Below, piece after piece: positions 3,014-42,652 of a stretch of DNA of 64,000 nt (position 1 is the first letter of the stretch; every line of letters starts with the position of its first letter). The notes beneath the pieces are model-generated. The model saw only the letters and a list, made by a program, of their open reading frames with translations. It was not told the origin of the DNA and searched no databases. Location: contig DASYCE010000008.1 in NCBI GenBank assembly GCA_036500345.1, positions 1-64,000 of the forward strand, written 5' to 3'. Source of the stretch: Gemmatimonadales bacterium (GTDB lineage: Bacteria; Gemmatimonadota; Gemmatimonadetes; Gemmatimonadales; GWC2-71-9). The translations under genes were made by a program, and so were the position numbers.

Positions 3014-3043
3014 AGTCTAACGCCTTGTTAGCAGACCTGTCAA
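3014..3043 (-). promoter_or_regulatory. Candidate leftward early promoter (pL-like)
   Basis: On the minus strand TTGACA (3038-3043) is followed after 18 bp by TAGACT (3014-3019), a consensus -35 and a four-of-six -10. It points toward the RHH gene starting at 2942. The TAACGCC/GGCGTTA and GTAAC/GTTAC repeats of the candidate operator lie at and downstream of the start site, as expected for repressor control. Confidence 0.6.
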
Positions 3044-3063
3044 GGGTCGGTTTAGGTGGGGTC

Positions 3064-3694: not shown

Positions 3695-3724
3695 GCAGGC
3701 CCTTTTTCCCGTAGCGCACCCGAA

Positions 3725-3753
3725 AGAGTAACGCTGTAACGGTTGTCCCGTAA
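3725..3753. promoter_or_regulatory. Right candidate operator region
   Basis: AGAGTAACGC (3725-3734) is the reverse complement of the GCGTTACTCT seen left of the repressor, and TTGTCCCGTAA (3743-3753) is an exact copy of the left element on the same strand. It lies between the divergent starts at 3694 (minus) and 3788 (plus), so it could control both. I could not assign clear -35/-10 boxes here. Confidence 0.5.
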
Positions 3754-3787
3754 GTGCCTTTGATAACCCATTGTGAGGTCAAGACTT

Positions 3788-22200: not shown

Positions 22201-23317
22201 CGAAGAGTGAGCCGAACCCATTGCGATCGATCTTCCCGAAATTCCCGTCCTGCACGACACCCGCGAGATTCTGGAGATTCGTGAAGATGCGCTGGACGGC
22301 GTCGGCTCGTTCCTTCGACCCCAGCTTGTCGAGGATACCGGAGAGATCGCCGATCGTGGTGACCAGCGAGCCGACCTCCACCGAGCGCGCCTGACCGTCA
22401 AACGCCGAGAGCGTCTGATCGAGGTCCTTGAGCAGGCCGATCACCGACGGCAGGATCTGGTTGCCCAGCTCGATTAGTTCGGCATTCAGGTTCTGCTTGA
22501 GGATGTCCCCGAGCTTGCCCGCGCTCTCCCGGCTCGTCGTTGCAGCGGCTTCGAGTGCGTTCATGTTGTCGGCGCTGCTCTGCGCCGACCCCGCCATATC
22601 GTCGAGTGCCTTTTTGCCGGCGTCTCCTTCCTTCGCGAGCTTGTTGATCTCCGCCGCGACCTGTTTGACGTTGAGGCCCTTTTCGATCAGATCGACGATG
22701 ACGTTCGTCATTTGCCCGAGGCTCAGCCCGGTCGCGTCTGCGGCTGGCCCAGTCTTTTCCAGTATCCCGAACACCTCATCGAGCGGCGCGTGGCCCTTCG
22801 CCGAGGCGAAAATGTCGGCCAACGCCTGTGCATCCTGCTCCGCCGTGAGATGAAACTCCTTCCCGACGCGATCGAGGCCGGTCAGGACCGTGGTGAGATC
22901 CACACCCGACGCGTCCGCGGCCGTGACACCGGCAGTGAGCAGCGTCTGGATATCGGAGGCTGATTGGACGCCAAGCCTGGCGAGGAGCGTCGCACCCTGG
23001 GCGAGGTCGGTCTGGGAGCGCCCGCTTTCCGTCGACAGGTCCCGGATCGTGTCGCGGATCTGGCCGAGCTGGGCAATCGTTTGCGGAGCCGACGCCACCA
23101 TTCCCTGCAGCGCGTTGTCGACGTCGGCCGCCATCCGGGTCGCATCGGCCGCGATGCCGAGCAGCGCGACCGAGAGACCCGCGAGCGCAACCGTTGGCTT
23201 GGACACGATGAAGCTGACGGTCTTATCGATCTCGCGTTCGATGTCCTGAAGCCCGCGTTCCAACTCGGTGGAGTCGGCGCGAAAACTCACGAAGACGTCA
23301 TCGATCTTGTTGCTCAC
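19220..23317 (-). CDS. Tail tape-measure protein
   Basis: About 1,365 residues from GTG 23317, which overlaps the previous stop and follows AAGGAGG. The protein begins SNKIDDVFVSFRADSTELER, the usual tape-measure opening, then a long alternating helical region with two central hydrophobic stretches (PTVALAGLSVALLGIAAD; VLAGVNALAGMLKATGLISD). The C-terminal part holds three roughly 72-residue repeats. The protein sets tail length; at about 0.15 nm per residue the tail would be near 200 nm. It is the largest gene of the window, as expected. Confidence 0.92.
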   Translation of the reverse strand: MSNKIDDVFVSFRADSTELERGLQDIEREIDKTVSFIVSKPTVALAGLSVALLGIAADATRMAADVDNALQGMVASAPQTIAQLGQIRDTIRDLSTESGRSQTDLAQGATLLARLGVQSASDIQTLLTAGVTAADASGVDLTTVLTGLDRVGKEFHLTAEQDAQALADIFASAKGHAPLDEVFGILEKTGPAADATGLSLGQMTNVIVDLIEKGLNVKQVAAEINKLAKEGDAGKKALDDMAGSAQSSADNMNALEAAATTSRESAGKLGDILKQNLNAELIELGNQILPSVIGLLKDLDQTLSAFDGQARSVEVGSLVTTIGDLSGILDKLGSKERADAVQRIFTNLQNLAGVVQDGNFGKIDRNGFGSLFDALNTSISSFPTATLQTMERGLLSLGQDVPTAQVTAYNNALLLLSKTIASRPDKGGSVAPPKSAPIGDPKADAAAEAARQKIADEIQANLSALLKLAADGSAAINDKLLGAWQNLNDQVDGHLQKLLKLVDPTNQLGAAQAKLANAPNESAAAKAAAELDAVYDRLIAKSPALGTAIQAAAQIQADFWKKASSDFTTTESSFEQSFQKEMQATAAQTTKDLEAVNDAYGKLKDTPFASQAFDILNDSTITLTEKAQKLGDLLKAAGIATTGINDGLKGTKDALNKIADGQLTIIQRQRQFVDAVLAGVNALAGMLKATGLISDGLATDIGNVVTFAEKAGSLADTIEKLSIKTVDKLGNVVSAASTGDVVLAAAEAAAALVPVLGSIFGESAAQKAEDSARAQAEADAVKHTQDLAAALAALADKVNKFGDETLSGAAFGALANRLPQIVAGSSQPVQGPGGPVLDDSGNPVFASSSDSVKQALAAVGVSIADVDAAANQLGITLTDKTAPTLEELTAISKGLQEEKFAQFANDFTDQLAELQAGFKVFNTTGSAQFAPFLTLLTDPKVGAPAIFNALQGIDVSTVSGASQATTILQGIFQQFKDGKIDPADFGGLNPTDFLNTIQTLLGLLPQVTTATAAQTKAETDSLAVRNLTAAGDTAGAAALQRQQQEQAEIDQALAAGYDDVTIAAIKATQAAEDQAAAVQKATDQANENESLIVRQLRAAGSGDAADALQRQIDETQEIADAIAKGFDASTIAAIKATQAQEDLAAAQTKAAAAAQAQADEQDSLAVRLLRATGQGDAADLLALQQSQAKELSDAIAQGFDQATIDQLKSTQAAELAQLQQSQATAAQQASATAQGVSGTSGNTTSATVTSNVGETLDLVGLAETANALLQEIVANTKSLRSGGPLLPPSLASLQSPGALGSGSVTLTIGSIPITVTVTSASDDPASLGNIAGTAAGRGFLDALNRQFGFANQRSAINRGDNPSVI
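19640..20275 (-). repeat. Three tandem repeats of about 216 bp in the tape-measure gene
   Basis: Three consecutive units of about 72 codons carry DSLAVR-x-L, AAGxGDAADxLQ and IAxGFDxxTIAAIKATQA. DNA copies begin near 20,260, 20,045 and 19,830. Unit duplications in tape measures change tail length stepwise. Confidence 0.8.
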
Positions 23318-26682: not shown

Positions 26683-27065
26683 GGCGTCGTGATCCGCTGG
26701 AGTGTGGCCAGCAGCGAGCTGATGCCGTCTTTCTCGCCGTGGACGTTGACCACCTTGAACTGCTGGCCTTCGCGCGATCCGTTGGTAACCGTGATCCGGT
26801 CGCGCTCATCGATGTCCGTCCCGGGCGGAAATGACCCGACGAGGTCGTACTCTTCGCTACCGCCGTAGCCGGCGGCGACCAGCGTTTCCGCCGAGTTGTT
26901 GAAGAAGCACCGCACGTCACTGCATCCGGCGACTGGCGTCCATGTCTCCGTGGCGACACCGCGGGTCGACTGCCCCGTCACGGTGCGCCGTCCGATCTCG
27001 ACCGTTGCGACAAGTCCCGCGCAGTCGAGATCGTGAAACACGAACGCCAGATCGCCGGGCAGCAT
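26679..27065 (-). CDS. Head-tail connector / head completion protein (gpFII-like position)
   Basis: 128 residues from ATG 27065, which overlaps the capsid gene stop. Beta-rich: LAFVFHDLDCAGLVATVEIG, VRCFFNNSAETLVAAGYGGS, DIDERDRITVTNGSREGQQF. This is the arrangement of small beta-barrel stoppers or connectors (lambda gpFII, SPP1 gp16 type), whose job is to close the portal after packaging and bind the tail. The upstream in-frame extension lies inside the capsid gene and is rejected. Confidence 0.65.
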   Translation of the reverse strand: MLPGDLAFVFHDLDCAGLVATVEIGRRTVTGQSTRGVATETWTPVAGCSDVRCFFNNSAETLVAAGYGGSEEYDLVGSFPPGTDIDERDRITVTNGSREGQQFKVVNVHGEKDGISSLLATLQRITTP

Positions 27066-28090
27066 CAGAGGACGTTGACGCCGACGGTCGCGTTCGGACG
27101 CAGCGGCACCGTGAGCGGCGCCGACTGCAGGAGCAGGAACCGCACCGACGGATCCTGCTCGAGCCACGACTTCGTGAAGTACGGCACCGAGGCGAGCGAG
27201 TCATGGTCCTTGATCGCGCCATGCGCCTGCAGTCCGTCGACGCGACTGGAGGCCAGGATCACGCGTCCGCTCGTCAGGACGCGCTTCTCGGTGTCGTCGG
27301 CCGGATCCACGTACCAGCCGGTGTAGGTGTAGAAGGTGTAGCCGCGGGCCTGTCCGACCTTCTGCAGCCCTTCGGCGTCCGAGACGTCCGGCGCGATTGA
27401 GGCGTTCACGAGGTTGAACTGGTTGAATTCCGCCTTGAACGTCGTGTCCTGCAGCATCGCGGCCAGCGTTTCGGGATCCACGATCACGTTGCGTGGCACG
27501 ACGCCGCAGAGCTGCTGGGCGTTGAGCGCCCAGGTCAGCAGATTGGTGAAGATGTCGGCCGCGGACTGGCCCCAGCGCGCAGTGCCGCTGAGCGCTGCGG
27601 GCGATGCCGATGCGTCGCGACCGAAATCGACGACGACGGTTTCGTAGCCATCGCCCGAGATCGTCACCTTGCCGGTGCTGAGCGTCTCGAGCGCCATGAG
27701 TTCCATGCGCCGGCGGATCATGTTGAGCTGATCCTGGAGTTCCTGCGCCAGAATCAGTTCCATCCGCTCCTGTGCGGTGAGCGAACCGCCGCCCACCTGT
27801 TCACCCATGGCGCGCTTGAACGGCCGCGTCGGGTCGAAAACGCGCTTGTCCTTGACGTATGCGGGCTTAAACGTCGCCACCTTCCGCCCGCGGCCCTCGA
27901 CCACTTTCCCCGGCAGGTACGGGGAAACGAACGGCGCCACCCGACGGCGCGCGTTGTCGATGTCGAAGTGGATCTCCTCGGTGTCATCGGTGACTTGATT
28001 GCCGAAGTACGTCTGGAGCAGGGAATTGCCGGGGACCTTGAGGTCCTCGACGATGCCGAGCATGGTGTCGGTACTGAAGAGGTCCGTCAT
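27065..28090 (-). CDS. Major capsid protein, lambda gpE family
   Basis: 341 residues, the same length as lambda gpE. Family features: N-terminal TDLFSTDTMLGIVEDLKVPG, then TEEIHFDIDNARRRVAPFVS, the GRKVATFKPAYVKDKRVFDP region, RMELMALETLSTGKVTISGD and KSWLEQDPSVRFLLLQSAPL near the end. It forms the HK97-fold icosahedral shell. It directly follows the gpD gene (4-bp gap), as in lambda, with no gpFI-like gene after it. Start ATG 28090. Confidence 0.93.
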   Translation of the reverse strand: MTDLFSTDTMLGIVEDLKVPGNSLLQTYFGNQVTDDTEEIHFDIDNARRRVAPFVSPYLPGKVVEGRGRKVATFKPAYVKDKRVFDPTRPFKRAMGEQVGGGSLTAQERMELILAQELQDQLNMIRRRMELMALETLSTGKVTISGDGYETVVVDFGRDASASPAALSGTARWGQSAADIFTNLLTWALNAQQLCGVVPRNVIVDPETLAAMLQDTTFKAEFNQFNLVNASIAPDVSDAEGLQKVGQARGYTFYTYTGWYVDPADDTEKRVLTSGRVILASSRVDGLQAHGAIKDHDSLASVPYFTKSWLEQDPSVRFLLLQSAPLTVPLRPNATVGVNVL

Positions 28091-28093
28091 CGA

Positions 28094-28747
28094 TCAAGCC
28101 CCCGCGGTCGGAATGAGGTGGATGCCGAGCTTCCGCAGACCCTCGCGGACGCTGTCGGCGGTGTGACCGGTGCCGTAGATCACGGCGCCGTCGTCGAAGA
28201 TGCCCGTCGCGTACGCGACGCCCGTGGCGTCAGCGGCGCTGGCATCGCAGTCATCGGCGAGGATCAGGTCCGGCACTTCGCTCCCGTCCGTCGCGGCCGC
28301 CGCGGACTTGAGGTACTTGTAGACCGCGGCCGAGACCGCCACCGTGAAGGCGTCCCCAGAGATGAAGTCGGCCGATCCATCTGCGATCGTGAAGTTGATC
28401 CCGCCCGTGAACGCGACGCCGACCGTCGCGCGGCCGATTTCGATCCCGTTCGGGTTGAAGACGGCGAAGACGCCGGCGTTGGTGCCGGGCTCGACGCAGA
28501 CGAGGCGGTAGTTCCCGTTCTTGGCCTCGGCGCCTGCGGTGACCGTGCCGACGGTCCCGTTGCCGGTGTTGCCGGCATCGGCCACGGCCGCGCCGACCGT
28601 GGCACTCACGGCGGTCTTGCCGAGGAGCGTGCCGCGGAGGAGGCTCTGGCCGGACAGGACGGTGATCGTGCGGGGGACGAGCTGCATGTCACCCGCGATC
28701 AGCCGATCCGGCGTGAAAGTGTCCGTGCTGAATTCAGCGGATTCCAT
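28094..28747 (-). CDS. Head decoration protein, gpD-like
   Basis: 217 residues. It begins FSTDTFTPDRLIAGDMQLVP, then TITVLSGQSLLRGTLLGKTA, the typical opening of gpD/head-stabilisation proteins, which bind as trimers on the expanded capsid. At twice the length of lambda gpD, it contains a middle beta insertion (YRLVCVEPGTNAGVFAVFNP) known from the longer members, and ends with TADSVREGLRKLGIHLIPT. It is located between the protease/scaffold and capsid genes. Confidence 0.87.
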   Translation of the reverse strand: MESAEFSTDTFTPDRLIAGDMQLVPRTITVLSGQSLLRGTLLGKTAVSATVGAAVADAGNTGNGTVGTVTAGAEAKNGNYRLVCVEPGTNAGVFAVFNPNGIEIGRATVGVAFTGGINFTIADGSADFISGDAFTVAVSAAVYKYLKSAAAATDGSEVPDLILADDCDASAADATGVAYATGIFDDGAVIYGTGHTADSVREGLRKLGIHLIPTAGA

Positions 28748-28750: not shown

Positions 28751-29176
28751 TCAGCTCCGTGCGGTGGAAGTGGCGCGTGCGGCATGGAACCGCTGCGCGA
28801 TGGCGCGACCGTGATCGCGCGCCGAGGGTGCATCGCCCGATTCATCGCCTGGCGACGCCTTGAGTCCGGTTTTGGCGAGTGCCGCTTCGGCACCCTTGAG
28901 TCCTTCGAGCTTCCGATTGCGGGTGTCGCGCTCGGCTTCGAGGATGCGCTGCGATGCGATCGCAGCCGTGACGGCCGGATCCTTCTTCGCCTCGGCGATC
29001 AGCGCCTCATGGCCCTTCGACGGCAGACCTTCGAGCGCGAGAATGCGCTCGCGCTCGGCCGTCACGGCCGTTGCGACCGCCGCGGACTGCTCGGCTTCGA
29101 CCGCCGAGCGTCCTTCCGCCCGCCAGGCGGCCACCGCGTCCGGATTGGCCGCGGCGAATTCTTCCTTGGTGATCAT
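28751..29176 (-). CDS. Nested in-frame scaffold protein (Nu3-like)
   Basis: ATG 29176 inside the protease gene opens a 141-residue in-frame product beginning MITKEEFAAANPDAVAAWRA, preceded by GGAG six bases upstream. It consists of the helical scaffold part only. Lambda makes Nu3 in the same way. The internal Shine-Dalgarno is seen in the sequence; actual use of the start is inference from lambda. Confidence 0.55.
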   Translation of the reverse strand: MITKEEFAAANPDAVAAWRAEGRSAVEAEQSAAVATAVTAERERILALEGLPSKGHEALIAEAKKDPAVTAAIASQRILEAERDTRNRKLEGLKGAEAALAKTGLKASPGDESGDAPSARDHGRAIAQRFHAARATSTARS

Positions 29177-30058
29177 GTCTGGCTCCGTGGTGGGTGTCTC
29201 TGCGCGATACCCACCTGGGCGCGCGCGGGTGGTGCGCGCCGCGAGTTCCGCGTGCACGCTTTCGTAGCTGCCGAGTCGATCGGCGAGCCCTGCTTTGACG
29301 GCATCGGCACCGACGAGGACATCCCCGCCGCCGAAGTTCTGCATGACCTCCTCGGCCGATACACCGCGGTATTCGGCCACCTGCCCGATGAACGACTGTG
29401 CCAGCGCATCGACGAGCGCCTGAATCCGCGCCATGCCCTCGGGAGTGGACGGATCCGATGCCTTGCCGGGGCTCTGGCTGGAGACGACGTCGTAGCGCTT
29501 GATACCCTTCGACGTTTCCTGTGCGCTGCGATCGGTGAACGTGGTGCGCACGCCAATCGAGCCGAGGATCGCCATCTGTGATGCGACGACGTCCGGAGCG
29601 GCCGCGGCGAGGAGGTAGGCGGCCGACGCGCCCATGCCTTCGACGTGCGCCACCACGGGCTTCTTCGCCGACGCCGCGCGGATCTGGGCGGCCGTCTCTT
29701 CCATGCCGGTGACTTCTCCGCCGGGGGAGTCGATCGCCAGCAGAATCGCGTGAACCGCGGGGTTATCGACCGCGCTTTGCAGATCCTGCGCGATGTCATC
29801 GTACGACGTCATCCCACTCACCTGACTGAAGAGATCGGCCCGTCGAACGAGCGGTCCCTCAATGGGAATCGTCGCCACACCATCGCGCACGGTCGCCGCA
29901 TGCGTATAGTCGAGCGGCCGGCCGAGCTTGGCCGCGACGGCCTCGAGGTCGTTCTCGCGCTGGACGATGCCGACGATGGTCTGCAACGACTCCGACGTGA
30001 TCGCCCACGGCGTGTCGAGAATGTGCGCGAGCACCCGCTTGGGAATGCGCTTCGTCAC
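28751..30058 (-). CDS. Prohead S49 protease fused to scaffold (lambda gpC/Nu3-like)
   Basis: 435 residues. The S49/SppA-like domain spans residues about 55-270: ILLAIDSPGGEVTGMEETAA, nucleophile Ser in VEGMGASAAYLLAAAA, ILGSIGVRTTF, and catalytic Lys in SSQSPGKASDPST. Residues about 290-435 are a helical scaffold (VEAEQSAAVATAVTAERERI). In lambda, gpC cleaves portal and scaffold during prohead maturation, and Nu3 is made from an internal start; the same layout is seen here. The stop of the portal gene overlaps the start (30055-30058). Confidence 0.9.
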   Translation of the reverse strand: MTKRIPKRVLAHILDTPWAITSESLQTIVGIVQRENDLEAVAAKLGRPLDYTHAATVRDGVATIPIEGPLVRRADLFSQVSGMTSYDDIAQDLQSAVDNPAVHAILLAIDSPGGEVTGMEETAAQIRAASAKKPVVAHVEGMGASAAYLLAAAAPDVVASQMAILGSIGVRTTFTDRSAQETSKGIKRYDVVSSQSPGKASDPSTPEGMARIQALVDALAQSFIGQVAEYRGVSAEEVMQNFGGGDVLVGADAVKAGLADRLGSYESVHAELAARTTRARPGGYRAETPTTEPDMITKEEFAAANPDAVAAWRAEGRSAVEAEQSAAVATAVTAERERILALEGLPSKGHEALIAEAKKDPAVTAAIASQRILEAERDTRNRKLEGLKGAEAALAKTGLKASPGDESGDAPSARDHGRAIAQRFHAARATSTARS

Positions 30059-31698
30059 TGATTCTCCGGGGCGGTAACGGGGACGGTTTCGGTATCCCGT
30101 GTCGTGACGGTGTTCTGCGGGGCCGGGATGCCGGCGTCGGTGAGCATCCGGCGCTCCTTCTTGACCTGGCCGAAGTCGGACATCCAGCTCCGGCCGTTGA
30201 GCGCCATCTTCTCCTCTTCGAGCGTCGTGAGCGTCGACGTCATCCGCTCGGTGGCGGCATTGGCCGCCTTGAGCTCATCCACCTGCGGCATCGTGGGACC
30301 GGACCACTGGACGCCGAGCCACGCGGCGCGTCGGAGCGGATCATCGAAGAAGCCCGGTGCCGAGAGGTATTCGCGGGCGACCGCTTCGGTGATGAGCCAC
30401 TCCCAGATCGGGGCGTACCAAAGGCGTACGAAGCGCGCGCGGCGGACGAGATAGACGCGCCACGCCTCGAGGAGCGCTGCGCGGCTCGCCGAATAGCTCG
30501 AGGAGAAGTGCTTGATCAGCACTTCGTACGGGATCTCGAGCGCAATGCCGATTTGACGCACCATCGCGAGCCAGAACGGGTCGAACTGGGCGTTCGGACG
30601 CGACGGATTGGCGATCGTGATGTCTTCGCCGTCGTCCAATGACGCGATCGCCCCTTCGCCGAGCTTGAGATCGGGCGCTTTGGTCCGGGGATTGTCTGCG
30701 CGGCCCTGCGTCGCGATCGCGTCGGCACTGAAGAACGGGGTCGGGCTGTCGGGATCTCCGACCGCTTTCCGCTTGACGAAGACCGTGAAGAAGGCGCTGA
30801 TCACCGCGGCCGTGAGCTCGGCGTTCGAATAGTTCCCGAGTTTGCGCAGCGGTTCGATGACCGGTGCGAAGGCGGTTACGCCGCGGAGCAGGCCCGGACG
30901 CCGACTGCGCATAATCAGCGTCGCCTGCAACTCGCCGTCGGGGCCCCGCTTTGGGATGTAGCTCCACGACTCGGCGGCATACGGACGTTGGAGCCGGTCC
31001 TCGGGGTAGATGCTGCAGACCCAGTAGCCGAGCGGCTCGCCGGTCGCCACATCGAACTTCACGCCGCCCATGGTGTCCGGAAGGATCTCAAACTGTGGAT
31101 TGCAGATCCGATCCGCCTCGATCAGCTGCACCGCCAGGCCGAAGAGTCGCCCTGGTGCATCGACGTAGCGCCGGACGGCCAGGATGTCGCCGTTGACGAA
31201 CTCGCCCCAGAACGCCTGCTCGCTCATCTCGTCGATCGAGCCCTGCGCGGCGTAATCGATGCAGCAATTGCCGGCGTGGGCTCGCCAGAGCCGGAGCGCG
31301 TTGGCTTCCCACTCGTCGGCCGCCTCGTCGGTCAATCCGAGCAGATCCGAGTCGATGTTCGGCGCGGGCAGGAGACCGGGACCGATCACGGCGGTGATCG
31401 TTGAGTCCGCTGCGCCCTTCGCGAGCGGTTCGTTGCGCTCGAGGTCGCGCGCGCGGGCCCGTAGACCGCCGCGGCCCGGCAGATCGCCGAGCGTGTCGCT
31501 GTTCGGGCTCAACGCGCGCGGGGTGAAGTCCATCGTTTGCCGGCGGTCCAGCCGAGCACCGATGTATTGGCCCGCGAATCCGTTGAAGAGCCGCGCGTTC
31601 ATGCGCCGCGCCGCCCAGGCCGGCGACACGAACTCGATGACGCGCTCGAGCGCGTTCGGCTGCGGCGCGCCCGATCGGACGATCGAGACGCCGCTCAT
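30055..31698 (-). CDS. Portal protein, lambda gpB family
   Basis: 547 residues. Family pattern: DFTPRALSPNSDTLGDLPGR, LERNEPLAKGAADSTITAVI, GPGLLPAPNIDSDLLGL, QAFWGEFVNGDILAVRRYVD, VQLIEADRICNPQF, then FVKRKAVGDP and the late SASRAALLEAWRVYLVRRAR. The portal forms the dodecameric ring at one capsid vertex, binds terminase and conducts DNA. Starts and stops overlap the neighbours by four bases on both sides. The length is close to lambda gpB (533). Confidence 0.93.
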   Translation of the reverse strand: MSGVSIVRSGAPQPNALERVIEFVSPAWAARRMNARLFNGFAGQYIGARLDRRQTMDFTPRALSPNSDTLGDLPGRGGLRARARDLERNEPLAKGAADSTITAVIGPGLLPAPNIDSDLLGLTDEAADEWEANALRLWRAHAGNCCIDYAAQGSIDEMSEQAFWGEFVNGDILAVRRYVDAPGRLFGLAVQLIEADRICNPQFEILPDTMGGVKFDVATGEPLGYWVCSIYPEDRLQRPYAAESWSYIPKRGPDGELQATLIMRSRRPGLLRGVTAFAPVIEPLRKLGNYSNAELTAAVISAFFTVFVKRKAVGDPDSPTPFFSADAIATQGRADNPRTKAPDLKLGEGAIASLDDGEDITIANPSRPNAQFDPFWLAMVRQIGIALEIPYEVLIKHFSSSYSASRAALLEAWRVYLVRRARFVRLWYAPIWEWLITEAVAREYLSAPGFFDDPLRRAAWLGVQWSGPTMPQVDELKAANAATERMTSTLTTLEEEKMALNGRSWMSDFGQVKKERRMLTDAGIPAPQNTVTTRDTETVPVTAPENQ

Positions 31699-32027
31699 CC
31701 TGGCCTCGCATAACTGATCCCGATGCCGGCGCGGGCCGCCGTGGCGGCGCGCGCCGTGAACTCCTGATCCATTGCGAAGAGATCGCGGAGCATCGCGCGG
31801 GTGTACGTCAATCCGTTGTAGGTGTAGCTCTGCGCGCCCGCCTGGATGGCTTCAATCGCGGCCTTCACGCCCCAGCGCTCGGCCAGCGCGTAGAGTTTCG
31901 GCAGATCCGTGGGCGCGTAGACGATGCCTTCGACCGTCGCGGACGAATACCCGCCGGCGAGATCGGTGATGGCTCGCTGCAGCCCGTTCAGGCGTGCGGC
32001 GAAAACGAGAATGGGAGCGCCACGCAT
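31695..32027 (-). CDS. Small head protein in the gpW position
   Basis: 110 residues with helical parts LNGLQRAITDLAGGYSSATV and YALAERWGVKAAIEAIQAGA, and a YNGLTYTRAMLRDLFAMDQE C-terminus. Between large terminase and portal, lambda encodes gpW, a 68-residue head-completion protein with a hairpin flanked by helices; here the second half (YTYNGLTYTRA) offers such a hairpin. The longer N-terminus is unusual. Assigned by position and partial pattern. Confidence 0.6.
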   Translation of the reverse strand: MRGAPILVFAARLNGLQRAITDLAGGYSSATVEGIVYAPTDLPKLYALAERWGVKAAIEAIQAGAQSYTYNGLTYTRAMLRDLFAMDQEFTARAATAARAGIGISYARPG

Positions 32028-32072
32028 GTCGCGACATTTACGTGCCGCAATGCGCGGGAAACAATAAACGCG

Positions 32073-34001
32073 CTACACCACGCTGATCCCGGGCGAGATC
32101 ATGCGGCGGCCGGACCGGGGCGCACCGGCGCCGCCGTCGCTCGGTGTGAAGGGCGACGACAATTCCGCCGCGAGCGCCTCCATGCCGGTCGTCACGGTCT
32201 TCGCGCCGACCGTGAAATGGGCCGCGAGCGCGTAGACCGCGAGGTCGAGGTAGTGGTTCGGGCCGAGCACGTTCCAGAACCGGTGCAGCTTGCCGCGGCG
32301 CACCTCTTCCGTCAGTCGCTCGCTCTTCGACAGCTGCTCGAGCAGCTCGATCGTGAACCAATCGGCCTCGGGGACGTGAATGAGGCCCGGTTTCCGCGTT
32401 TCGCCCTGGTCGAGCTCGATGGTGAGCCGGTTGAGGATGTCGAATTTCGCTTGCCAGGTGCCGACGCGGTACGTGGTGATCTTCGCGTGCTTGTGGAAGG
32501 TCGGTTTGCCGAGAATCGGCGCGTTTTCGTCGCCGGAGCCCATGATGCCGAACGTCCGCTCGTCCGCGCGCGCCTGATTGCGCACCCAGTTGTCGACGTC
32601 CGTCGTGTGGTGGCCGAGCCGGTCGATGAAACAGACGATCGGCCGCAGCAGCCGTCCCGATCGATGGCGGTAGGTGCGTTGCCGCCACTCATTCAGCCGG
32701 CGCCAGGGCACCGGCGTGCCCGGATCCCCTTCGAGGTACTCGTAATCGATCGGCCAGGTCTCGCGCTCGTGGCCGAACCCGAAGACCGCGCCCTCGAGCC
32801 GGTCGTCCTGCGTATCGACCGCCCGCACGAGGAACGACACGCCATCGGGAACCTCCGCCTCGTACCGCTCGGCCCGCCCGAACAGAATGTTCGTCGCCAC
32901 CCAGTCCGCTGATTCCTTGTACGGCTCGCAGAGCACGGTGTTAATGAACTGTTTCCGCTTCAGCGGCTTGTCTTTGACCTCGTACCACTCCTTCACGATC
33001 GACGCCCAGCGCGCGCCGGGCACCATCCCGACGAGCGCGTTCATCCAGAAGCCCAGCGCCTCGGTTTCGGCCGGATTCTCCGCGACGAACTGACCGCCGG
33101 CGTTCATCTGCCGCTTGAACTCCTCGCCAAAGGGCCGGAGGCAGTGCTCGCAGATATAGTGCGCGGTCTCCGGCATCCCGTCGGTCCATTTCAGACCCCA
33201 CGCCACGTCGCGCGATCCGAATTTCAGGATCTGCAGCTCGCCGCAGAGCGGGCAGGGCAGATGCAGGCGCGAGCGGTTGGTGGTGGCGAATTCCTCCATG
33301 ATCGGGGAGTCGTCTTCGTTGGTGGGCGTGCCGAAGGCTGCCAGGTGCCGGTAGTGGAACCGTTTCATCCGGGTGGCGAGCTGGCGCAGCGGCGTGCCCT
33401 GGCGCCCGGCGTCGCGCGGGACCTGGTCGAGCTCGTCGACGCGGATGACCGCGACCGGCCGCGCCTGCAAATCGGCCGACTGCGTCATCCCGACGATGCC
33501 GAGATAGCCGCCGGGGTACGCCTTCCGCGCGATCGTGTTCATCTTGTCGCGGGTTTCGTCGGACACCAGCCCGCGGAGAACCGGGATGTCGCGGAACATC
33601 GGGTCGACGCGGTCCTTCGACCAGGTGCGGACGTCCTTCGAGTCGCGCGGCACGCCCCAGAGGATCGGCGAGGGTCGCAGATGGATCCGGGCGCCGAGAT
33701 CCGCCTTCATGATCGTTGTCTTGCCGCCGACCTGGGCGGGAAGCACGCCGACGACGCGGTGCACACGGAGATCGCCCATCGCCCGCATGATCGGCGCGTG
33801 CCACGGCGTGAGATCGGGATCGTACGGTGCGAGCTGCCCGTCGTTCTCCTCGGGCGACATCATCAGGTGCTCGCGGGCCCATGCCGCGACATCCAGCGGT
33901 GAGATCGCCGCGAACGCGCCGCGACGTTCTTCGCGCTCGAGCTTGTCCCAGCGCGCGAGCTCGTCCTCGTCGATCACCTCGCCGGCGATCGCGAGCGTCA
34001 C
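32073..34001 (-). CDS. Terminase large subunit, lambda gpA (GpA) family
   Basis: 642 residues. The ATPase domain has HRVVGVLPAQVGGKTTIMKA (Walker A-like), LWGVPRDSKDVRTWSKDRVD and the Walker B VIRVDELDQVP, then the RQGTPLRQLATRMKRF motif. A CPLC...CEHC zinc pair (residues about 245-285) is usual in GpA. The nuclease part carries VRAVDTQDDRLEGAVFGFG and VCFIDRLGHHTTDVDNW. The enzyme cuts concatemeric DNA at cos and powers packaging through the portal. It overlaps terS by 4 bases. Confidence 0.94.
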   Translation of the reverse strand: MTLAIAGEVIDEDELARWDKLEREERRGAFAAISPLDVAAWAREHLMMSPEENDGQLAPYDPDLTPWHAPIMRAMGDLRVHRVVGVLPAQVGGKTTIMKADLGARIHLRPSPILWGVPRDSKDVRTWSKDRVDPMFRDIPVLRGLVSDETRDKMNTIARKAYPGGYLGIVGMTQSADLQARPVAVIRVDELDQVPRDAGRQGTPLRQLATRMKRFHYRHLAAFGTPTNEDDSPIMEEFATTNRSRLHLPCPLCGELQILKFGSRDVAWGLKWTDGMPETAHYICEHCLRPFGEEFKRQMNAGGQFVAENPAETEALGFWMNALVGMVPGARWASIVKEWYEVKDKPLKRKQFINTVLCEPYKESADWVATNILFGRAERYEAEVPDGVSFLVRAVDTQDDRLEGAVFGFGHERETWPIDYEYLEGDPGTPVPWRRLNEWRQRTYRHRSGRLLRPIVCFIDRLGHHTTDVDNWVRNQARADERTFGIMGSGDENAPILGKPTFHKHAKITTYRVGTWQAKFDILNRLTIELDQGETRKPGLIHVPEADWFTIELLEQLSKSERLTEEVRRGKLHRFWNVLGPNHYLDLAVYALAAHFTVGAKTVTTGMEALAAELSSPFTPSDGGAGAPRSGRRMISPGISVV

Positions 34002-34522
34002 GCGGCGACCTGCTCGGGCGCATCCGGCAGCTCCAGCTGCCCCGCGTCCTCACCGCGCAGCATGGCGAGCTGGCGATTGATGATCGCCTCGAGTCGCTCG
34101 TCCAGGAGCACCGGGTCGGTGACGCCGAGCAAGCGGTCGCCGTACTGGGTCAACGTGCGGATCGCGCCGGCCGCCTGGACCGCGAGCGTCCGGTAGCGAC
34201 GTCGCGCCTCCGTCTCGGTCACCAGCTGGCGCTTCTTCTCCTGCAGCTCGAGCTCGAGGATCTGGTTCTCGAGCTCGAGCTGCCGTTCCTTGCCGGCTGA
34301 CTGGCGCCGCGGCCCGAACTTCTTCGCCTCGGCCGCGGCTTTGTGCTCGCGATGCCACTGCTCGGCATCGGGCCAAGCCTTTGGCATCCCGGCCTTGAGC
34401 AGATTCGCGACCTGGCGTTCTCCCACGCCGAGCTTCTTCGCCAGGACGGCGATCGTGGGCGGCTTGGGCTTCGAACTGGCTGGCAACCGCTGACGTGGTG
34501 ACGGCTTGCGCCGTTTACCCAC
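33998..34522 (-). CDS. Terminase small subunit, Nu1-like
   Basis: 174 residues from GTG 34522. N-terminal basic tail, then a winged-HTH-like IAVLAKKLGVGERQVANLLK AGMPKAW-type segment that in Nu1 binds cos, followed by a long coiled coil (KERQLELENQILELELQEKK) and an acidic C-terminus that normally contacts the large subunit. It directly precedes terL with a 4-base overlap. The order and domain layout are those of lambda nu1-A. Confidence 0.85.
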   Translation of the reverse strand: MGKRRKPSPRQRLPASSKPKPPTIAVLAKKLGVGERQVANLLKAGMPKAWPDAEQWHREHKAAAEAKKFGPRRQSAGKERQLELENQILELELQEKKRQLVTETEARRRYRTLAVQAAGAIRTLTQYGDRLLGVTDPVLLDERLEAIINRQLAMLRGEDAGQLELPDAPEQVAA

Positions 34523-34662
34523 ATCGCACCTGCACTGTCAATGCTACCACCCGCTGTGTGCAAATCCCCGACAGGTTCGGCGCTCCCGTTGAGACCGCAC
34601 CCTGCCGGGAGGACCCGGCGACTCGGCGATCGATCCGAATCCACTGCGACCGGTCGGGAAAA
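34523..34662. other. Gene-free 140 bp upstream of terS; candidate cos region
   Basis: This is one of the few gaps in the late operon and lies just upstream of the small terminase, where lambda has cosN/cosB. I see no clear coding potential and no obvious symmetric nick site, so this is a positional suggestion only. The 145-bp gap at 35152-35296 is an alternative place. Confidence 0.3.
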
Positions 34663-35151
34663 TCACGCAGCATCGGCGAGCCACGATGCGCCACAGTGAG
34701 CGCAGGGATGCGTTGGCGTGACCTGACCGCAGTCGGCGCAGCGATACCACACGGGATCACCTGCAGTGGCCACCTTGGTGGCATACAGCATGGCCCGACG
34801 GATGCCGTAGCCGCTGAGGAAACCGATGCCGAACGTTTCGCACACGGCCTCGAGTCCATCGAGCGGTACGTTCACGATCGCAGTCGCGACGCAGCCGAGG
34901 CATGGACGGGCCGCATCAGACTTGCCACCGTACCGGTTGCCGCGCGATCCCTGACGCCGGTCGCCGGGCTTCAGCCCCATCGCGCGCCCGAGCTGCAGGA
35001 TGGCGCGCATTCGGAGCGATGCGATCCGGGCGATATCGCGAGCGGCGAAGCCGTCGTTGCGCATCGAGATTGCCACGGCGATACGATCGCCGCGCCGCAT
35101 AGTGATGTCAGCGCGCAGGATCTTCTCGATCTCCGTATGTGAGCAGCTCAT
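34663..35151 (-). CDS. Phage protein with helical HTH-like start and C-terminal zinc ribbon
   Basis: 162 residues from ATG 35151. Residues about 1-60 are helical with a RDIARIASLRMRAILQLGRA segment that could be a helix-turn-helix. CLGC near residue 93 and YRCADCGQVTPTHPCAHCGA near the end provide Cys pairs for zinc. Its position just upstream of the terminase genes is where phages carry late regulators or HNH-type endonucleases. No His-Asn-His motif is visible, so a regulator is more likely. Not a family I recognise with certainty. Confidence 0.6.
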   Translation of the reverse strand: MSCSHTEIEKILRADITMRRGDRIAVAISMRNDGFAARDIARIASLRMRAILQLGRAMGLKPGDRRQGSRGNRYGGKSDAARPCLGCVATAIVNVPLDGLEAVCETFGIGFLSGYGIRRAMLYATKVATAGDPVWYRCADCGQVTPTHPCAHCGASWLADAA

Positions 35152-35296
35152 GGGCTGCCGGTGCGCCGTCGCGGCGCAATTCGTTGCATCATTCGCTCCC
35201 CCGAGAGAGCGCTTCGACACCGCTATCCAGTCGAACGCTGGATCGTCTGTCGAGCGATATTGACCGGCAGCCGCCGCGAGACAGAGCCGGGACGAT

Positions 35297-35479
35297 CTAT
35301 GCAGTACGCTTGCGCCGTTTTCCCGTGCGCCGCGGGTGCACCTTCGCCACGCACGCCGTACATACCGCCCGTCGTTTCTTCCAGAATCCCCGGTCCCATC
35401 CGCATCCGCCGGGGCACGCGTGGTACCAGTCGCACCGGCAGATCTCGCAGATCGCCGTGAACGCATCGAGCGCGATCAC
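35297..35479 (-). CDS. Small cysteine-rich zinc-finger protein
   Basis: 60 residues from GTG 35479, overlapping the previous stop. It has seven Cys: AICEICRCDWYHACPGGCGW and VCTACVAKVHPRR, with a His between, consistent with one or two zinc sites; the C-terminus is very basic. The motif ICxxCRCDWYxxCPGGCxW is familiar from small phage zinc proteins of unknown role. A 145-bp gap follows. Confidence 0.7.
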   Translation of the reverse strand: MIALDAFTAICEICRCDWYHACPGGCGWDRGFWKKRRAVCTACVAKVHPRRTGKRRKRTA

Positions 35480-36204
35480 GCGATCGCTCCTGCCGGAACT
35501 GATGCTTCGGCTTCTTTCGCTCGACGTTCTGAGAGAATCGCGGCGTAGGCGGTTGGGTGCTGGTCGGCGAATGGTGGCCGGTGGTCGATGACGTACGTAC
35601 CCCGCGTCTCCGTCGACTTCAGCCAGCCCATCTGAATCCAGCGCCGTTGATCTACACGGAAAGCGCGCATCGTCTGCCGCGTGATCTTCCCGGCCACTTC
35701 CAACTCAGCGAGGACGCGCAACGCGCCAGTTTTCCACTGCGTCAGCGTGATCGGGGACGGCGATCCGGCGACTGAATCGGTGGCGAATTCAGGAACCGTG
35801 CAGCGCGTCTCCGGACACCAGTCGACCCACGGCAGGCCATAGGGGTTGTGCGGAGTGAGGTCGGGACCGAACTGTTCGTAGTGCCGTGACCAGTCGGTTC
35901 TTCCAGCGAAGACGACGAGGCCGCAGTGCCTGGCGAGGCCGATGAAGGCGCCACGTTCCTCGGGGACCAGCACCGCGCGAAACTCCGGGCCATGCTGACT
36001 GTGCCAGTCGGACGGCACCGCCTGCATGATGACTTCGGCGTTCAATCGGAGCTTCGCCTGTATCCCGAGCTGGACGCCATCGGGGTAGACGACGAGCAGG
36101 TCCCACCCGTCGCACTCGGCGTAACACTTCAGGTCGGGACGACGGGCGGCAACCCAAGCGGTGAATGCCGCGCAGAGCTCGGCTTCGGTCTTGAATTCAC
36201 TCAT
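35476..36204 (-). CDS. Putative PD-(D/E)XK-like nuclease-fold phage protein
   Basis: 242 residues. Residues about 1-90 show E in TEAELCAAFTAWVAAR, then Glu in KCYAECDGWDLLVVYPDG followed by LGIQAKLRLN. This E...(W)D...QxK pattern fits a restriction-endonuclease-like fold with the QxK variant of the last motif. The C-terminal half (KTGALRVLAELEVAGKITRQ, RWIQMGWLKS) resembles a winged helix. It lies next to the RuvC-like and HerA-like genes. Catalytic activity is inference. Start ATG 36204. Confidence 0.6.
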   Translation of the reverse strand: MSEFKTEAELCAAFTAWVAARRPDLKCYAECDGWDLLVVYPDGVQLGIQAKLRLNAEVIMQAVPSDWHSQHGPEFRAVLVPEERGAFIGLARHCGLVVFAGRTDWSRHYEQFGPDLTPHNPYGLPWVDWCPETRCTVPEFATDSVAGSPSPITLTQWKTGALRVLAELEVAGKITRQTMRAFRVDQRRWIQMGWLKSTETRGTYVIDHRPPFADQHPTAYAAILSERRAKEAEASVPAGAIA

Positions 36205-36496
36205 CGGCCACCGCCGGCGGGAAGGTCAACGGCTTCCGCGTCGGGTCTGGCTTCGTCGTCACGCTGGAATGCCTGTGGCCAAGGTTGCATGTGCGGATGC
36301 GGCGCCGGACGATGACAGGCACGAAGTCGAACCCACGCCACGATTCGTTGCCTGGTCCACCCTGCATTCCCCATTCACGCGCGTGGGTTTCGCCCTCGAA
36401 GACGTAGCCGCGCAGCGTTGAATCGCCGCCGCGATGCGGCCGCAGCTGGTACGACTGGGTCACCTTCACCTCACTCTTTGCCTGACGGGCGCTCAC
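36197..36496 (-). CDS. Hypothetical phage protein
   Basis: 99 residues from GTG 36496, which overlaps the stop of the RuvC-like gene. Contains strands KVTQSYQLRPHRGGD, RGYVFEGETHAREWGM, WRGFDFVPVIVRRRIRTCNL; one Cys. No membrane segment. It resembles small beta-barrel accessory proteins but no family is recognised. It overlaps the start of the nuclease-fold gene by eight bases, so the three genes form a unit. Confidence 0.6.
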   Translation of the reverse strand: MSARQAKSEVKVTQSYQLRPHRGGDSTLRGYVFEGETHAREWGMQGGPGNESWRGFDFVPVIVRRRIRTCNLGHRHSSVTTKPDPTRKPLTFPPAVADE

Positions 36497-37005
36497 GACG
36501 CCCTCCGCTTCGGCAGCCGCGGCAGCTCGATGATCGGAGCAGCCCACGCCATGTAAACGGCGTCGCGCTCGTGTTCGGAGGTGCGCTTCGTGAAGTCCGG
36601 GAAGACGAGGAGGTTCCGTTTCGCGCGATCGGGCTTCGAGACCTTCGATGCTCCCACTTCCAGCACCCGCCGGCAGCCATATGCGCAGGTCACGAGGATG
36701 GCGCCGCGGGCCAGATGGAAGTCCGTCATGACGCGCTCGATTTTCAGCCCAGCCGAGCTGTCGCCATTCTCACGACCGTAGAGGCCGATCGTGCTGGGCT
36801 TCTCGATCAGCACGACATCGATCGGGTTGCGCGCGAACAGCGCCTGCAGGTGACTGGCCAGCAGCTGCAGCCGGACGGTGATCGCGTCGTCCGGCGAGGT
36901 GGTGATCGAGCCGGACTCGAGGAGCCGGAATTTCCCAGGCGCCTCGCGATCGACGACCGCGGCACCCATGTGGGCGAGACCCGGGTCCACGCCGAGGACG
37001 ATCAC
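36493..37005 (-). CDS. RuvC-like Holliday junction resolvase
   Basis: 170 residues from GTG 37005. RuvC/RNase H-fold motifs: first Asp in VLGVDPGLAHMGAAVVD, Glu in DVVLIEKPS (second acidic), then VLEVGASKVSKPD, and the late acidic pair in TSEHERDAVYMAWAAP. Such enzymes cut branched DNA during recombination or before packaging. RuvC proper has IEEVF where this has IEKPS, so it belongs to the divergent phage branch. It is coupled by four-base overlaps to the HerA-like gene upstream and the 99-residue gene downstream. Confidence 0.85.
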   Translation of the reverse strand: MIVLGVDPGLAHMGAAVVDREAPGKFRLLESGSITTSPDDAITVRLQLLASHLQALFARNPIDVVLIEKPSTIGLYGRENGDSSAGLKIERVMTDFHLARGAILVTCAYGCRRVLEVGASKVSKPDRAKRNLLVFPDFTKRTSEHERDAVYMAWAAPIIELPRLPKRRAS

Positions 37006-38795
37006 TGCAGCGACTCGGGGAAGAGCAGTGGACTCGCGGCGATGCGCCCCTTCACCGGCATCACCGCGGCGCCGACGGTGATCAGGTCCGCGACATGCTG
37101 AGCACCCGTCCCGCCGGTGAGGTTGTATCCCACCGCCTGCCCGAGATCCGCGCGAGAGATCGACTCGGGATAGATCCCGATGAGGTGCTCGGCGATGCGA
37201 CGGGAGCCAGCTGAGGTCCGGGCGAGAATCCGCTCGTGCAATTCTGTCAGCGTCGTGGGAACGCCGGTCGCGGTCGCGGCAGCTCGCCCCTCGCCCGTCA
37301 GGCGGAGCGAGCCCTTCGCCGGCATCTCAGCCAACCCGAAAGCGATCAAGTCGGCGATGTGCTGTGCGCCGGTACCGCCGGTCAGATTGTACCCGGCGAC
37401 CATGCCGAGTTGATGCCGAGTCGTCTCCGGAATGCCGAGCGCCTCGAGTTCCGCCAGCGCGTTCAGGATCTTCACGGCGCCGGCGGACATCTTCCCGGTC
37501 GGAGCGCTGTCGGTGCTCACAGTCGTCACGCGACTTGGCGCGGCCGTGCGGGTCTCAGCTCGTGCGAGGCGCCCGATCTGTGCTTCCATCTGGCGAGCGC
37601 GATCGCGGCTATCAGCGATTCCCCGCCCGGGCGCCGGCTTCGCGTCGTTCACTTTTCGCACCTCAGCAAGCAGCCCGGTCACGCCGTCCACCAACCGGTC
37701 CCATCGATCCTTCGAACGCTCACTTTCCTCGGAGATGCGCGTGGCGAGTTGCACCAGCTGCGCGACCGCCTCCGGCTTCACAATCGGCTTCTCGACGATC
37801 TTCACTTCGACCTTCCCCGGCGCCGCGGCTGCCGGCTGTACGGTTCCGGACTTCTTTGCCTGGCGCTCGAGCTCGGCGATGCGGGCCCGGAGGCGCCTCG
37901 GGTCCTGTGCTTCGGCCTCGGCGACCGCGTCCCCGATGATCGCCCGAAGCTTCTCGCGGTCGACCGGCGCTGTCTTGATCTCGCGCGTCACGCCGTCGCC
38001 GGTGGGGGTCGCGGTGTTGTCGTACGTGGTGATCATCGGAAAGGCGACGCGCTCGAACTGCCGGGCCTCGCCGGAGCAGATCCAGCCCTCGCCGGTTTTC
38101 AGTGAGGCGAGTGAGGACGAGACGTCGGCCAGGATCTCCTTCGTGGTGTTCGCCTTGAGCCACTTCACGACCGGTTCCTGATCCGCCGGCGCGGTGAGCC
38201 GGTGCGCGATCAGAGTATCGCAGCTGCCGAGCAGGGCGTTGTGCAGCGCCTGCGTTCGCTGCGTGGCGAGGATCAGCCGGATCCCCTTCGATCGGCCGGC
38301 GGTCGCGATCGTCTTCGCCCAGTGGATCGAGAGATTCTCCGACCCGATGCCTGAGCGCTCCTTCGGCGCGAAAAGATGCGCCTCCTCGACGACGAGGTAG
38401 ACGACGCCACGCATCTTCCGCAGCAAGGCGGGCGCGAATTCGGTGAAGAACCGCGCCTGGCCGCCCGGCTCGAACTCCGCCATATCGATGATCGAGAGTG
38501 GCAGCGCGCCGGTGGCCACGATCTCAGCCACCGCTTTCCCCGACGAGCTGTGGAGCGGGACGTGCCCGTGCGGGCCGCCGAGGATCTGGAAAGCGAGCCC
38601 CGCGTGCTTACCATCGGCACTCGATGTGAGTCCCCACCAGTCCGATTTCAGCGGGTCGAGGATGCAGACTCGCGCTCCCTCGGCGACGACCTGCTCGATC
38701 ATCAGCTTGGACGTGATGGTCTTGCCCGCCCCGGTCTTTCCGAGGACGGCCGTGTGCTGCGACAACATCGCCGGCGAGAAGAGATGGCGCGTCAC
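37002..38795 (-). CDS. HerA/DUF87-like ATPase with two C-terminal winged-helix repeats
   Basis: 597 residues from GTG 38795 (overlapping the previous stop; ATG 38825 is possible). Walker A: TAVLGKTGAGKTITSKLMIE; then CILDPLKSDWWGL; Walker B region VYLVVEEAHLFAPKERSG; sensor/arginine region GIRLILATQRTQALHNALL, characteristic of HerA-FtsK helicases/translocases. After a Pro/Ala-rich middle there are two similar domains, each containing GYNLTGGTGAQH[IV]ADLI (about residues 465-530 and 535-597). HerA-type ATPases pump or resect DNA with nucleases. Here a RuvC-like and a nuclease-fold gene follow. Confidence 0.85.
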   Translation of the reverse strand: MTRHLFSPAMLSQHTAVLGKTGAGKTITSKLMIEQVVAEGARVCILDPLKSDWWGLTSSADGKHAGLAFQILGGPHGHVPLHSSSGKAVAEIVATGALPLSIIDMAEFEPGGQARFFTEFAPALLRKMRGVVYLVVEEAHLFAPKERSGIGSENLSIHWAKTIATAGRSKGIRLILATQRTQALHNALLGSCDTLIAHRLTAPADQEPVVKWLKANTTKEILADVSSSLASLKTGEGWICSGEARQFERVAFPMITTYDNTATPTGDGVTREIKTAPVDREKLRAIIGDAVAEAEAQDPRRLRARIAELERQAKKSGTVQPAAAAPGKVEVKIVEKPIVKPEAVAQLVQLATRISEESERSKDRWDRLVDGVTGLLAEVRKVNDAKPAPGRGIADSRDRARQMEAQIGRLARAETRTAAPSRVTTVSTDSAPTGKMSAGAVKILNALAELEALGIPETTRHQLGMVAGYNLTGGTGAQHIADLIAFGLAEMPAKGSLRLTGEGRAAATATGVPTTLTELHERILARTSAGSRRIAEHLIGIYPESISRADLGQAVGYNLTGGTGAQHVADLITVGAAVMPVKGRIAASPLLFPESLQ

Positions 38796-39751: not shown

Positions 39752-39824
39752 AGCTCCCGGCCCGAATCGAACGGGCGACCTGCGCGTTACGAGTGCGCTG
39801 CTCTACCGACTGAGCTACAGGAGC
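39752..39824 (-). tRNA. tRNA-Thr (anticodon CGU)
   Basis: The minus strand folds as a complete cloverleaf: acceptor GCTCCTG/CGGGAGC (one G-U), D arm GCTCAGTCGGTAGAGC, anticodon loop CTCGTAA with CGT, T arm GCCCG-TTCGATT-CGGGC. The anticodon stem has an A-C mismatch at 31-39, the discriminator would be U, and CCA is not encoded. It reads ACG, a common Thr codon in GC-rich genes. Phage-borne tRNA inside the accessory region, not an att site. Confidence 0.88.
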
Positions 39825-40899: not shown

Positions 40900-40998
40900 A
40901 TGTTCGGGGAGATGTTCGGGGACCGATGGGGCCTGTTACGACTTTTCCGGGATGGGACGTGTCCGGCAAAGGCCCGTCGTAGCTACATTGTGTCCGGC
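40900..40998. repeat. Two pairs of direct repeats beside attR, candidate integrase or regulator sites
   Basis: ATGTTCGGGGA occurs at 40900-40910 and again at 40912-40922. GTGTCCGGC occurs at 40959-40967 and 40990-40998, 31 bp apart (about three helical turns). They lie on the phage side of the attachment core, where integrase arm sites or the promoter of the leftward operon would be. Confidence 0.4.
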
Positions 40999-41014
40999 CG
41001 AGGACCGGTGGCCA

Positions 41015-41060
41015 CTGACTGTTAATCAGCGGGTCGGGGGTTCGAGTCCCTCCTCGGGAG
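41015..41060 (+). other. Prophage attachment site: 3' half of tRNA-Asn(GUU)
   Basis: The segment carries CTGA, loop CTGTTAA with anticodon GTT, TCAG, variable loop, T arm GGGGG-TTCGAGT-CCCTC and the 3' acceptor strand CTCGGGA plus discriminator G at 41060. No D arm or matching 5' acceptor strand lies upstream, and base 41014 breaks the anticodon stem (A opposite C). This is exactly what is left when a phage integrates into a tRNA gene. The core is at least 46 bp as far as tRNA sequence shows. Confidence 0.88.
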
Positions 41061-41122
41061 CTGACTTTCCTGTCCAAATCTGGCGCGGGTGCTCGCTCGC
41101 GATCCCCGCTCCGATACTGGGG

Positions 41123-42652
41123 ATGATGCCAATGCCACGGTTGATCCCGCGCCTCGCGCCGTTCCTGGTGATCCTTGCTGCGGCCAGTTGCCGCGCACCA
41201 TTTCTTCCCGACAACGGCGGGGCGACCCCGCCGCCGCCGCCACCGCCGGGTCCGCTCCTTCCACTTCGCATCGGCTCCTCCGGTCCCGATTTCGCGCGCG
41301 CCGTCGCGAACGACGCGGCCGGGAACGCATACGTGGTGAGTTATTTCGCCAACACCGTCGACTTCGATGGTGGCGTCGGTGCCACCGCGAAGGTCGCGCA
41401 CGGCCCCTATGACATCGCGCTCGCCAAGTACGCGTCCGACGGCACGTTCCAGTGGGTCAACGCTATCGGCGGCTCGGATGTCGACGTTCCCTATGGCGTG
41501 AAGGTCGGACCTGACGGAGCGGCCTACGTCGTCGGCTACGTCACGGCCGGCGCCGACTGCAACGGGCATATCGTTCAGAATCACGGTGATCACGATGTGC
41601 TGATCATGCGGATCACCGCCGAGGGCGTCTGCGACTGGGCAATCGGCGTCGGCGGTAGCGGCCCCGATGAGGCGCACGATCTGGCGTTCGATTCGAACGG
41701 CGACCTGCTTGTCACCGGATTCTTCTCCGACACGGTCGACTTCGATCCGGGTCCGGACGCACATACCCTCGAATCGCGCGGTGGCACCGACATCTTCGTC
41801 GCCCGGTACGGCGAGGACGGATCGTTCAAGAGCGTCGCGCAATTCGGCGGTCTTGGCAACGACGTCGGCAACGCGCTGGCAGTCCGTCTCGACGGCGACA
41901 TCATCTTCGGTGGGTCATTCAACAACGCCGCGGTCTTCGGATCGTCACTGGCTCCGCTGACGCTGATCAGCTCCGGCGGGCTGGACTATTTCGTGGCGCG
42001 CCTGTCGACGTCGCTCGACCTCGAGTGGGCGATCCATGGCGGCGGCGGCGGCGACGACATGATCAACCCCGGGTGCATCGTGGCGAGCCCGACCGGCCTG
42101 ATCTATGTCGCCGGGACGTTCAACGGGGTCGCATCGGTCGGACCAGGGGTCGGCGGTCAGGCACTCACCAGTCACGGTGGCGCCGACATCTTCCTTACCG
42201 GATATGACGGTGGCGGAAACTGGATCGGATTTGCGCGGGTGATCGGCGGCACCGGGACCGACGCCGTCGCCGCGCTGGCCCAGGACGCGGTCGGCAATTT
42301 CTACCTGAGCGGCTCGTTCCAGGGCTCTGTCGATTTTGATCCGGGATCCGGGACGCACGTCGTCCCGGGACTGGGGACCGGTGGGGCGTCGGACGCGTTC
42401 GTCGTGTCGCTCACCCCCGGTGGTGACCTCCGGTGGGTTGACCCGCTGACCTCGGTCATTTCTGGTGAGACCTTCCTGTCGATCGCCAACGGGATCTCGC
42501 TGGCGGGCGACGGATCGATCTGGGCGGTCGGCAGGTTCTTCGGGCTGGTCGATTTCGATCCGGGAGCAGGCTCGGTATCGCGCCAGAGCGTCGGCGACGC
42601 CGATCAGTTCATCGTCCGGTACGACCAGACGACCGGTTCGATCATCCGCTAG
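41123..42652 (+). CDS. Lipoprotein with beta-propeller-type repeats
   Basis: 509 residues. Signal peptide PRLIPRLAPFLVILAAASC with lipobox AASC, then a Pro-rich linker PPPPPPPGP. From residue about 50 a unit of roughly 60-75 residues recurs: GSSGPDFARAVANDAAGNAY, DIALAKYASDGTFQWVNAIG, and the hallmark VDFDPGPDAH/VDFDPGSGTH/VDFDPGAGSV. These are SBBP-like beta-propeller blades seen in many secreted bacterial proteins. It is probably anchored in the outer membrane and exposed. It is the first host gene after attR, 62 bases downstream; native transcription may have come from the tRNA region now separated by the prophage. Confidence 0.85.
   Translation: MMPMPRLIPRLAPFLVILAAASCRAPFLPDNGGATPPPPPPPGPLLPLRIGSSGPDFARAVANDAAGNAYVVSYFANTVDFDGGVGATAKVAHGPYDIALAKYASDGTFQWVNAIGGSDVDVPYGVKVGPDGAAYVVGYVTAGADCNGHIVQNHGDHDVLIMRITAEGVCDWAIGVGGSGPDEAHDLAFDSNGDLLVTGFFSDTVDFDPGPDAHTLESRGGTDIFVARYGEDGSFKSVAQFGGLGNDVGNALAVRLDGDIIFGGSFNNAAVFGSSLAPLTLISSGGLDYFVARLSTSLDLEWAIHGGGGGDDMINPGCIVASPTGLIYVAGTFNGVASVGPGVGGQALTSHGGADIFLTGYDGGGNWIGFARVIGGTGTDAVAALAQDAVGNFYLSGSFQGSVDFDPGSGTHVVPGLGTGGASDAFVVSLTPGGDLRWVDPLTSVISGETFLSIANGISLAGDGSIWAVGRFFGLVDFDPGAGSVSRQSVGDADQFIVRYDQTTGSIIR

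Follow-up and report, generated by a model that had tools for sequence, protein, structure and literature searches.

A tRNA-Asn 3′ part as the right attachment site of a lambda-type prophage in a Gemmatimonadales bacterium, and the unusual active site of its integrase

The window, by which we mean the whole 64,000-nucleotide stretch analysed here, comprises positions 1 to 64,000 of contig C8 from a Gemmatimonadales genome, i.e. it starts at a contig end. Its first 41 kb carry the head, tail, and lysis genes collected in Table 1 and, between the prophage borders, a Dit-like gene. As a tailed phage of the lambda type, the prophage is unremarkable; relatives of its portal protein were found in 561 phage records, with an identity below 60% in every one. 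Just upstream of the terminase genes is a cluster in which a RuvC-like gene lies between a gene with a weak, below cut-off match to the pPIWI-associated REase family (35476-36204, minus strand) and a gene for a HerA-like ATPase (37002-38795, minus strand). In addition, a complete tRNA-Thr(CGT) gene (39752-39824, minus strand) is located inside the prophage, approximately 1.2 kb from its right end, and is probably carried by the phage.

Table 1. Features of the prophage and its borders, in window coordinates unless contig C4 is named.
Feature	Location	Strand	Remarks
Assembly overlap	1-141	+	exact reverse complement of C4:1-141
Prophage, right-hand 41 kb	1-41062		remaining 8.65 kb on the left, C4:1-8652 reversed
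Endolysin-like protein	14724-15266	-	
Tape measure protein	19220-23317	-	
Major head protein	27065-28090	-	
Head decoration protein	28094-28747		adjoins major head protein
Head maturation protease	28751-30058	-	
Portal protein, lambda family	30055-31698	-	
Terminase large subunit, lambda gpA type	32073-34001	-	PF05876, PF20454
Probable integrase arm site, 26 bp, TGTTCGGGGAGATGTTCGGGGACCGA	40901-40926	+	88 bp left of attR core
Left limit of core, first mismatch	41014	+	A versus G27 in the intact tRNA
attR core	41015-41062	+	48-bp copy of the tRNA-Asn(GUU) 3′ part (positions 28-74 plus one base)
First chromosomal gene past the prophage right end	41123-42652	+	congener orthologues downstream of tRNA-Asn
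Excisionase-like ORF, 69 aa	C4:7254-7463		overlaps integrase start by four bases (GTGA)
Integrase, 352 aa	C4:7460-8518	+	stop codon 86 bp from core, gene aimed at core
Intact tRNA-Asn, anticodon GTT	C4:8606-8679	-	complete, at attL

The right border of the phage DNA is formed by a stub of tRNA-Asn(GUU). The original prediction had placed the 3′ half of this tRNA at 41015-41060; its identity stands, while the extent has to be corrected from 46 to 48 bp, since the last tRNA base is 41061 and the identity extends one base further, to T41062. On the left, identity starts at tRNA position 28, and the replacement of G27 by A41014 removes the first anticodon-stem pair right at this limit, as had been read from the break in the stem. 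The 5′ half is indeed missing: ARAGORN calls no tRNA at the stub (its sole call in the window is the tRNA-Thr), and the Rfam tRNA model reaches 22.9 bits there, below the gathering score of 29. The stub matches the intact tRNA-Asn with a BLAST E value of 3.7e-18 (search space, the 3.3-Mb genome). The other copy of the core, C4:8605-8652 on the minus strand of the same genome, is 100% identical. A 42-base pattern from the core, with up to three mismatches allowed, gave no third match in the genome, and a reversed control pattern gave zero matches.

The only other genomic match of C8:1-141 is C4:1-141. The window starts at base 1 of C8 and shares this 141-bp overlap with C4, and therefore reversed C4 is its left neighbour. 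An overlap of exactly 141 bases suggests the trace of a k=141 assembly graph at a branch; the join itself rests on the 141-bp overlap in a draft assembly of 32 contigs. Reading from reversed C4 into C8, the order is tRNA-Asn/attL, integrase, 8.6 kb, window, and attR, with the 48-bp direct repeat of the tRNA 3′ end present in exact form at both borders. Hence, both elements expected to the left of the window were recovered on C4: an intact tRNA-Asn gene, ending in the identical segment of at least 46 bp that had been sought (48 bp, the only other copy in the genome), and an integrase of the tyrosine recombinase type converging on it. The prophage is 8,652 + 40,921 = 49,573 bp long, both cores counted, and the predicted excised circle is 49,525 bp. 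One boundary had been fixed to the base and the other predicted; both ends are now located to the base. The C4 part of the prophage encodes a cytosine methylase, an HNH protein, and a helicase/methylase. At L006:4418-6916, an 832-aa phage protein has a helicase-like N-terminus fused to an N6/N4 DNA methylase domain, and genes for a cytosine methylase (1143-2888) and an HNH protein (2888-3967) adjoin it.

Part of the prophage is already present in IMG/VR, in trimmed form. Record UViG_3300036781_000836 (40,356 bp) was compared with window positions 29076-36998 and is identical there, at an offset of 16. From its length and this offset, the record should span window positions 17-40372; it would thus end 690 bp before the end of attR and be without the integrase end. 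The borders of the record are apparently not the true att sites.

The arrangement of the unoccupied locus can be read from congeners. In G009 and G004, orthologues of the C4 chromosomal genes (including MoaC and DNA polymerase III delta′) are followed by tRNA-Asn and then by orthologues of the right-flank genes of the window (41123-42652, 42820, 43144, 43383, 44687, and 47578; identities roughly 50-96%), all on a single contig and with no phage genes. In the present genome, the prophage splits these two flanks. The first right-flank orthologue begins approximately 135 bp past the tRNA-Asn in G003, where its start region resembles that of the window (CGATACTG.GGA), while the distance is approximately 2 kb in G009 and G004. 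The congeners differ at the DNA level, and gene order, not base-by-base alignment, was therefore the basis for judging the empty site. The outcome named beforehand as contrary, a complete tRNA-Asn across 41014 with the same left flank in a phage-free relative, did not occur; to the left of the intact tRNA-Asn, the phage-free congeners carry the C4 chromosomal genes (DNA polymerase III delta′, MoaC) and not the phage DNA of the window. Partial 3′ copies of tRNA-Asn are also found in related genomes (G026:C199:6850-6897 and 8890-8962; G057:C65:1452-1494), which suggests that tRNA-Asn is used repeatedly for integration in Gemmatimonadales.

Near both cores we also found a 26-bp repeat composed of two TGTTCGGGGA units, 12 bp apart. 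The copy near attR is matched by an exact copy in the same orientation at C4:8530-8555, 49 bp beyond the attL core. These positions are those expected for the arm sites P and P′, and the repeats are probably bound by the integrase.

As predicted, no integrase was detected in the 41 kb: PF00589 has no match across the 64-kb window (on C8, the closest match is at 132,615), and PHROGs gave none among the window proteins scanned. The protein encoded at C4:7460-8518 does match a PHROGs integrase (E 5e-7), and the neighbouring 69-aa ORF has weak matches to an excisionase family and to HTH_17 (E 0.003 and 0.009). Pfam PF00589, however, leaves the integrase unmatched at E 0.1, and a search of the whole genome with this profile returned five other loci, the prophage integrase not among them. 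Within the integrase family, PF00589 matches three of eight members, weakly (best E 0.0044). The integrase keeps Lys239, Arg278, His301, and Tyr310. The full pentad R-K-H-R-H is incomplete: the position of the first arginine (Arg I) is occupied by Gly218 (in TGMGPAE), and that of the first pentad histidine (box II) by Tyr275. An AlphaFold2 model of the L109 relative (37% identical; pLDDT 86) has lambda integrase as its best Foldseek PDB matches (E 9e-6), and it is from this relative's model, rather than from the prophage integrase itself, that a lambda-Int-like core-binding and catalytic fold is read. In the model, the catalytic lysine and the arginine four residues after it (lysine+4) are placed in one loop between beta2 and beta3.

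Gemmatimonadota genomes and IMG/VR both contain relatives of the integrase. These were sought by DNA patterns, the family alignment being too diverse for back-translated scans; a single-protein scan of IMG/VR gave no relative, and neither did 50,697 phage records. Pattern matches in Geobacteraceae and Deltaproteobacteria were dropped, as they had no match to the integrase family profile. Among the members without Arg I, the 3′ end of the integrase gene faces tRNA genes for Asn (G011), Lys (G024 and G084), Leu (G204), and Arg (G111 and G034; in G077, a cluster for Arg and Val). Approximately 14 kb (G024) and 10 kb (G084) from the tRNA-Lys, its 3′ part recurs as a 44-bp copy that starts in the anticodon stem. 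Together, the tRNA-adjacent members and the 44-bp repeats suggest that enzymes of this family integrate DNA. In G011, the source of L109, tRNA-Asn is present in full as two identical copies, each on its own contig.

The members without Arg I tend to carry an arginine at lysine+4 (Arg243 in the prophage integrase), within the motif GTKRx[GA]RxRxVP. This arginine is present in 21 of the 23 non-redundant sequences without Arg I versus 1 of the 16 with it. The two exceptions are L071 and L106, of which L071 is probably out of frame, with a box I region unlike that of a recombinase. The raw Fisher p value for the association is 8e-8, a figure that ignores relatedness. A tree-based test yielded two pairs on supported branches and was not significant; with too few independent switches on the tree, we do not take the Fisher p value as proof. 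Of the Xer-type controls from the same order, 29/29 parsed cases retain Arg I, which serves as a sanity check only since the parser required Arg I.

Scans of viral contigs for the loop motif (with R or S permitted at lysine+4 in the first scan) provided four recombinases outside the family (L121, L124, L148, and L149, all from IMG/VR) that have the arginine at lysine+4 and no box I arginine; for L124 and L148, box I was assigned by visual inspection and is the least certain. L125 has a serine at lysine+4 and keeps Arg I. Arg243 may stand in for the missing Arg I. With the family itself and the four outside recombinases taken together, we lean towards placing the prophage integrase in a wide class of phage tyrosine recombinases that existing profiles cover poorly and in which the strictly conserved catalytic Arg I is replaced by an arginine at lysine+4 in the beta2-beta3 loop, an exchange that would have arisen more than once.

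The repeat, the contig overlap, the position and orientation of the integrase, the paired arm-like repeats, and the empty site in congeners are direct observations, and we consider it highly probable (approximately 95%) that 41015-41062 is the attR of a temperate tailed phage that targets a tRNA gene in a Gemmatimonadales host, with integration as follows. The attP of the phage would carry the 3′ part of tRNA-Asn. The integrase, a tyrosine recombinase, is expected to bind arm sites that flank the core on both sides, and strand exchange would occur inside the shared 48 bp, probably in the anticodon-loop segment CTGTTAA. Because the exchange falls within the shared 48 bp, attL on C4 would retain a complete, functional tRNA-Asn, whose 3′ part is now phage-derived, while the original 3′ part of the host tRNA-Asn would stay behind as the stub at attR. 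Excision would be the reversal of this reaction, presumably aided by the adjacent excisionase-like protein.

Fragments of tRNAs are common in genomes, and the stub could in principle be a degenerate tRNA-Asn gene or a chance likeness that involves no integration. The likeness, however, extends without a mismatch over 48 bp, breaks off abruptly in the anticodon stem, and coincides exactly with the border between phage and chromosome; the gene order at the empty site refutes this explanation, to which we assign next to no weight. The draft state of the genome, with its 32 contigs, would also allow for an artefact of binning or assembly, in which C4 and C8 derive from different genomes, or the 41 kb are a contaminant phage contig with the stub as a repeat-induced misjoin. 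This is very improbable: detection of the exact 141-bp overlap did not depend on the att repeat, in G009 and G004 one contig each is colinear with the C4 and C8 flanks, and the arm-like repeats agree between the two contigs.

A prophage that integrated as proposed but has since decayed and is unable to excise, e.g. through a dead integrase, deserves more consideration, although we regard it as unlikely. A dead enzyme is formally possible because Arg I is absent (Gly218), and the box II histidine is likewise replaced (Tyr275). Against decay, the integrase and the large structural genes that were scanned are open frames, and the two 48-bp att cores remain identical. Moreover, Arg I is missing throughout the integrase family, at various tRNA genes and with 44-bp att repeats beside two of the members; its loss is thus a trait of the family and not decay of the copy in this prophage.

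The integrated phage resembles known tRNA-targeted phages and islands with a lambda-Int-type recombinase (P4/Sf6-like and NBU1-like sites): the core is the 3′ part of the tRNA, insertion restores the tRNA at attL, where the integrase gene adjoins, and the far end is marked by a direct repeat. It differs from them in its Gemmatimonadales host and in an integrase that is beyond the reach of PF00589 and without Arg I. According to Smyshlyaev et al. (2021, PMC8138268, citing Kim et al. 2010), some members of the IntCTnDOT subgroup are also without Arg I, and a downstream arginine is thought to be the replacement. The loss of Arg I is common to those members and the prophage integrase, whereas the candidate arginine here is at lysine+4, at the opposite side of the beta2-beta3 loop. 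For the CTnDOT integrase, the corresponding candidate is Arg285, two residues ahead of Lys287. The same paper (PMC8138268) describes the IntDes subgroup of Desulfovibrio as having an arm-binding domain, a displaced first pentad arginine, and tyrosine in place of the first histidine. By that description, the prophage integrase is alike in the arm-binding domain and the tyrosine and may be alike in the displacement of the arginine; the hosts differ.

Collectively, the results show a genuine and complete attachment site of a well-known type; they add to it the second border at base resolution, the empty site, and the unusual active site of the integrase. The att sites are now base-exact for a phage of a group with few described. 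If the arginine swap is true, many phage integrases would be missed by standard profiles, or called dead for an absent residue, and re-engineering of the active site in tyrosine recombinases would be directly testable with two point mutations.
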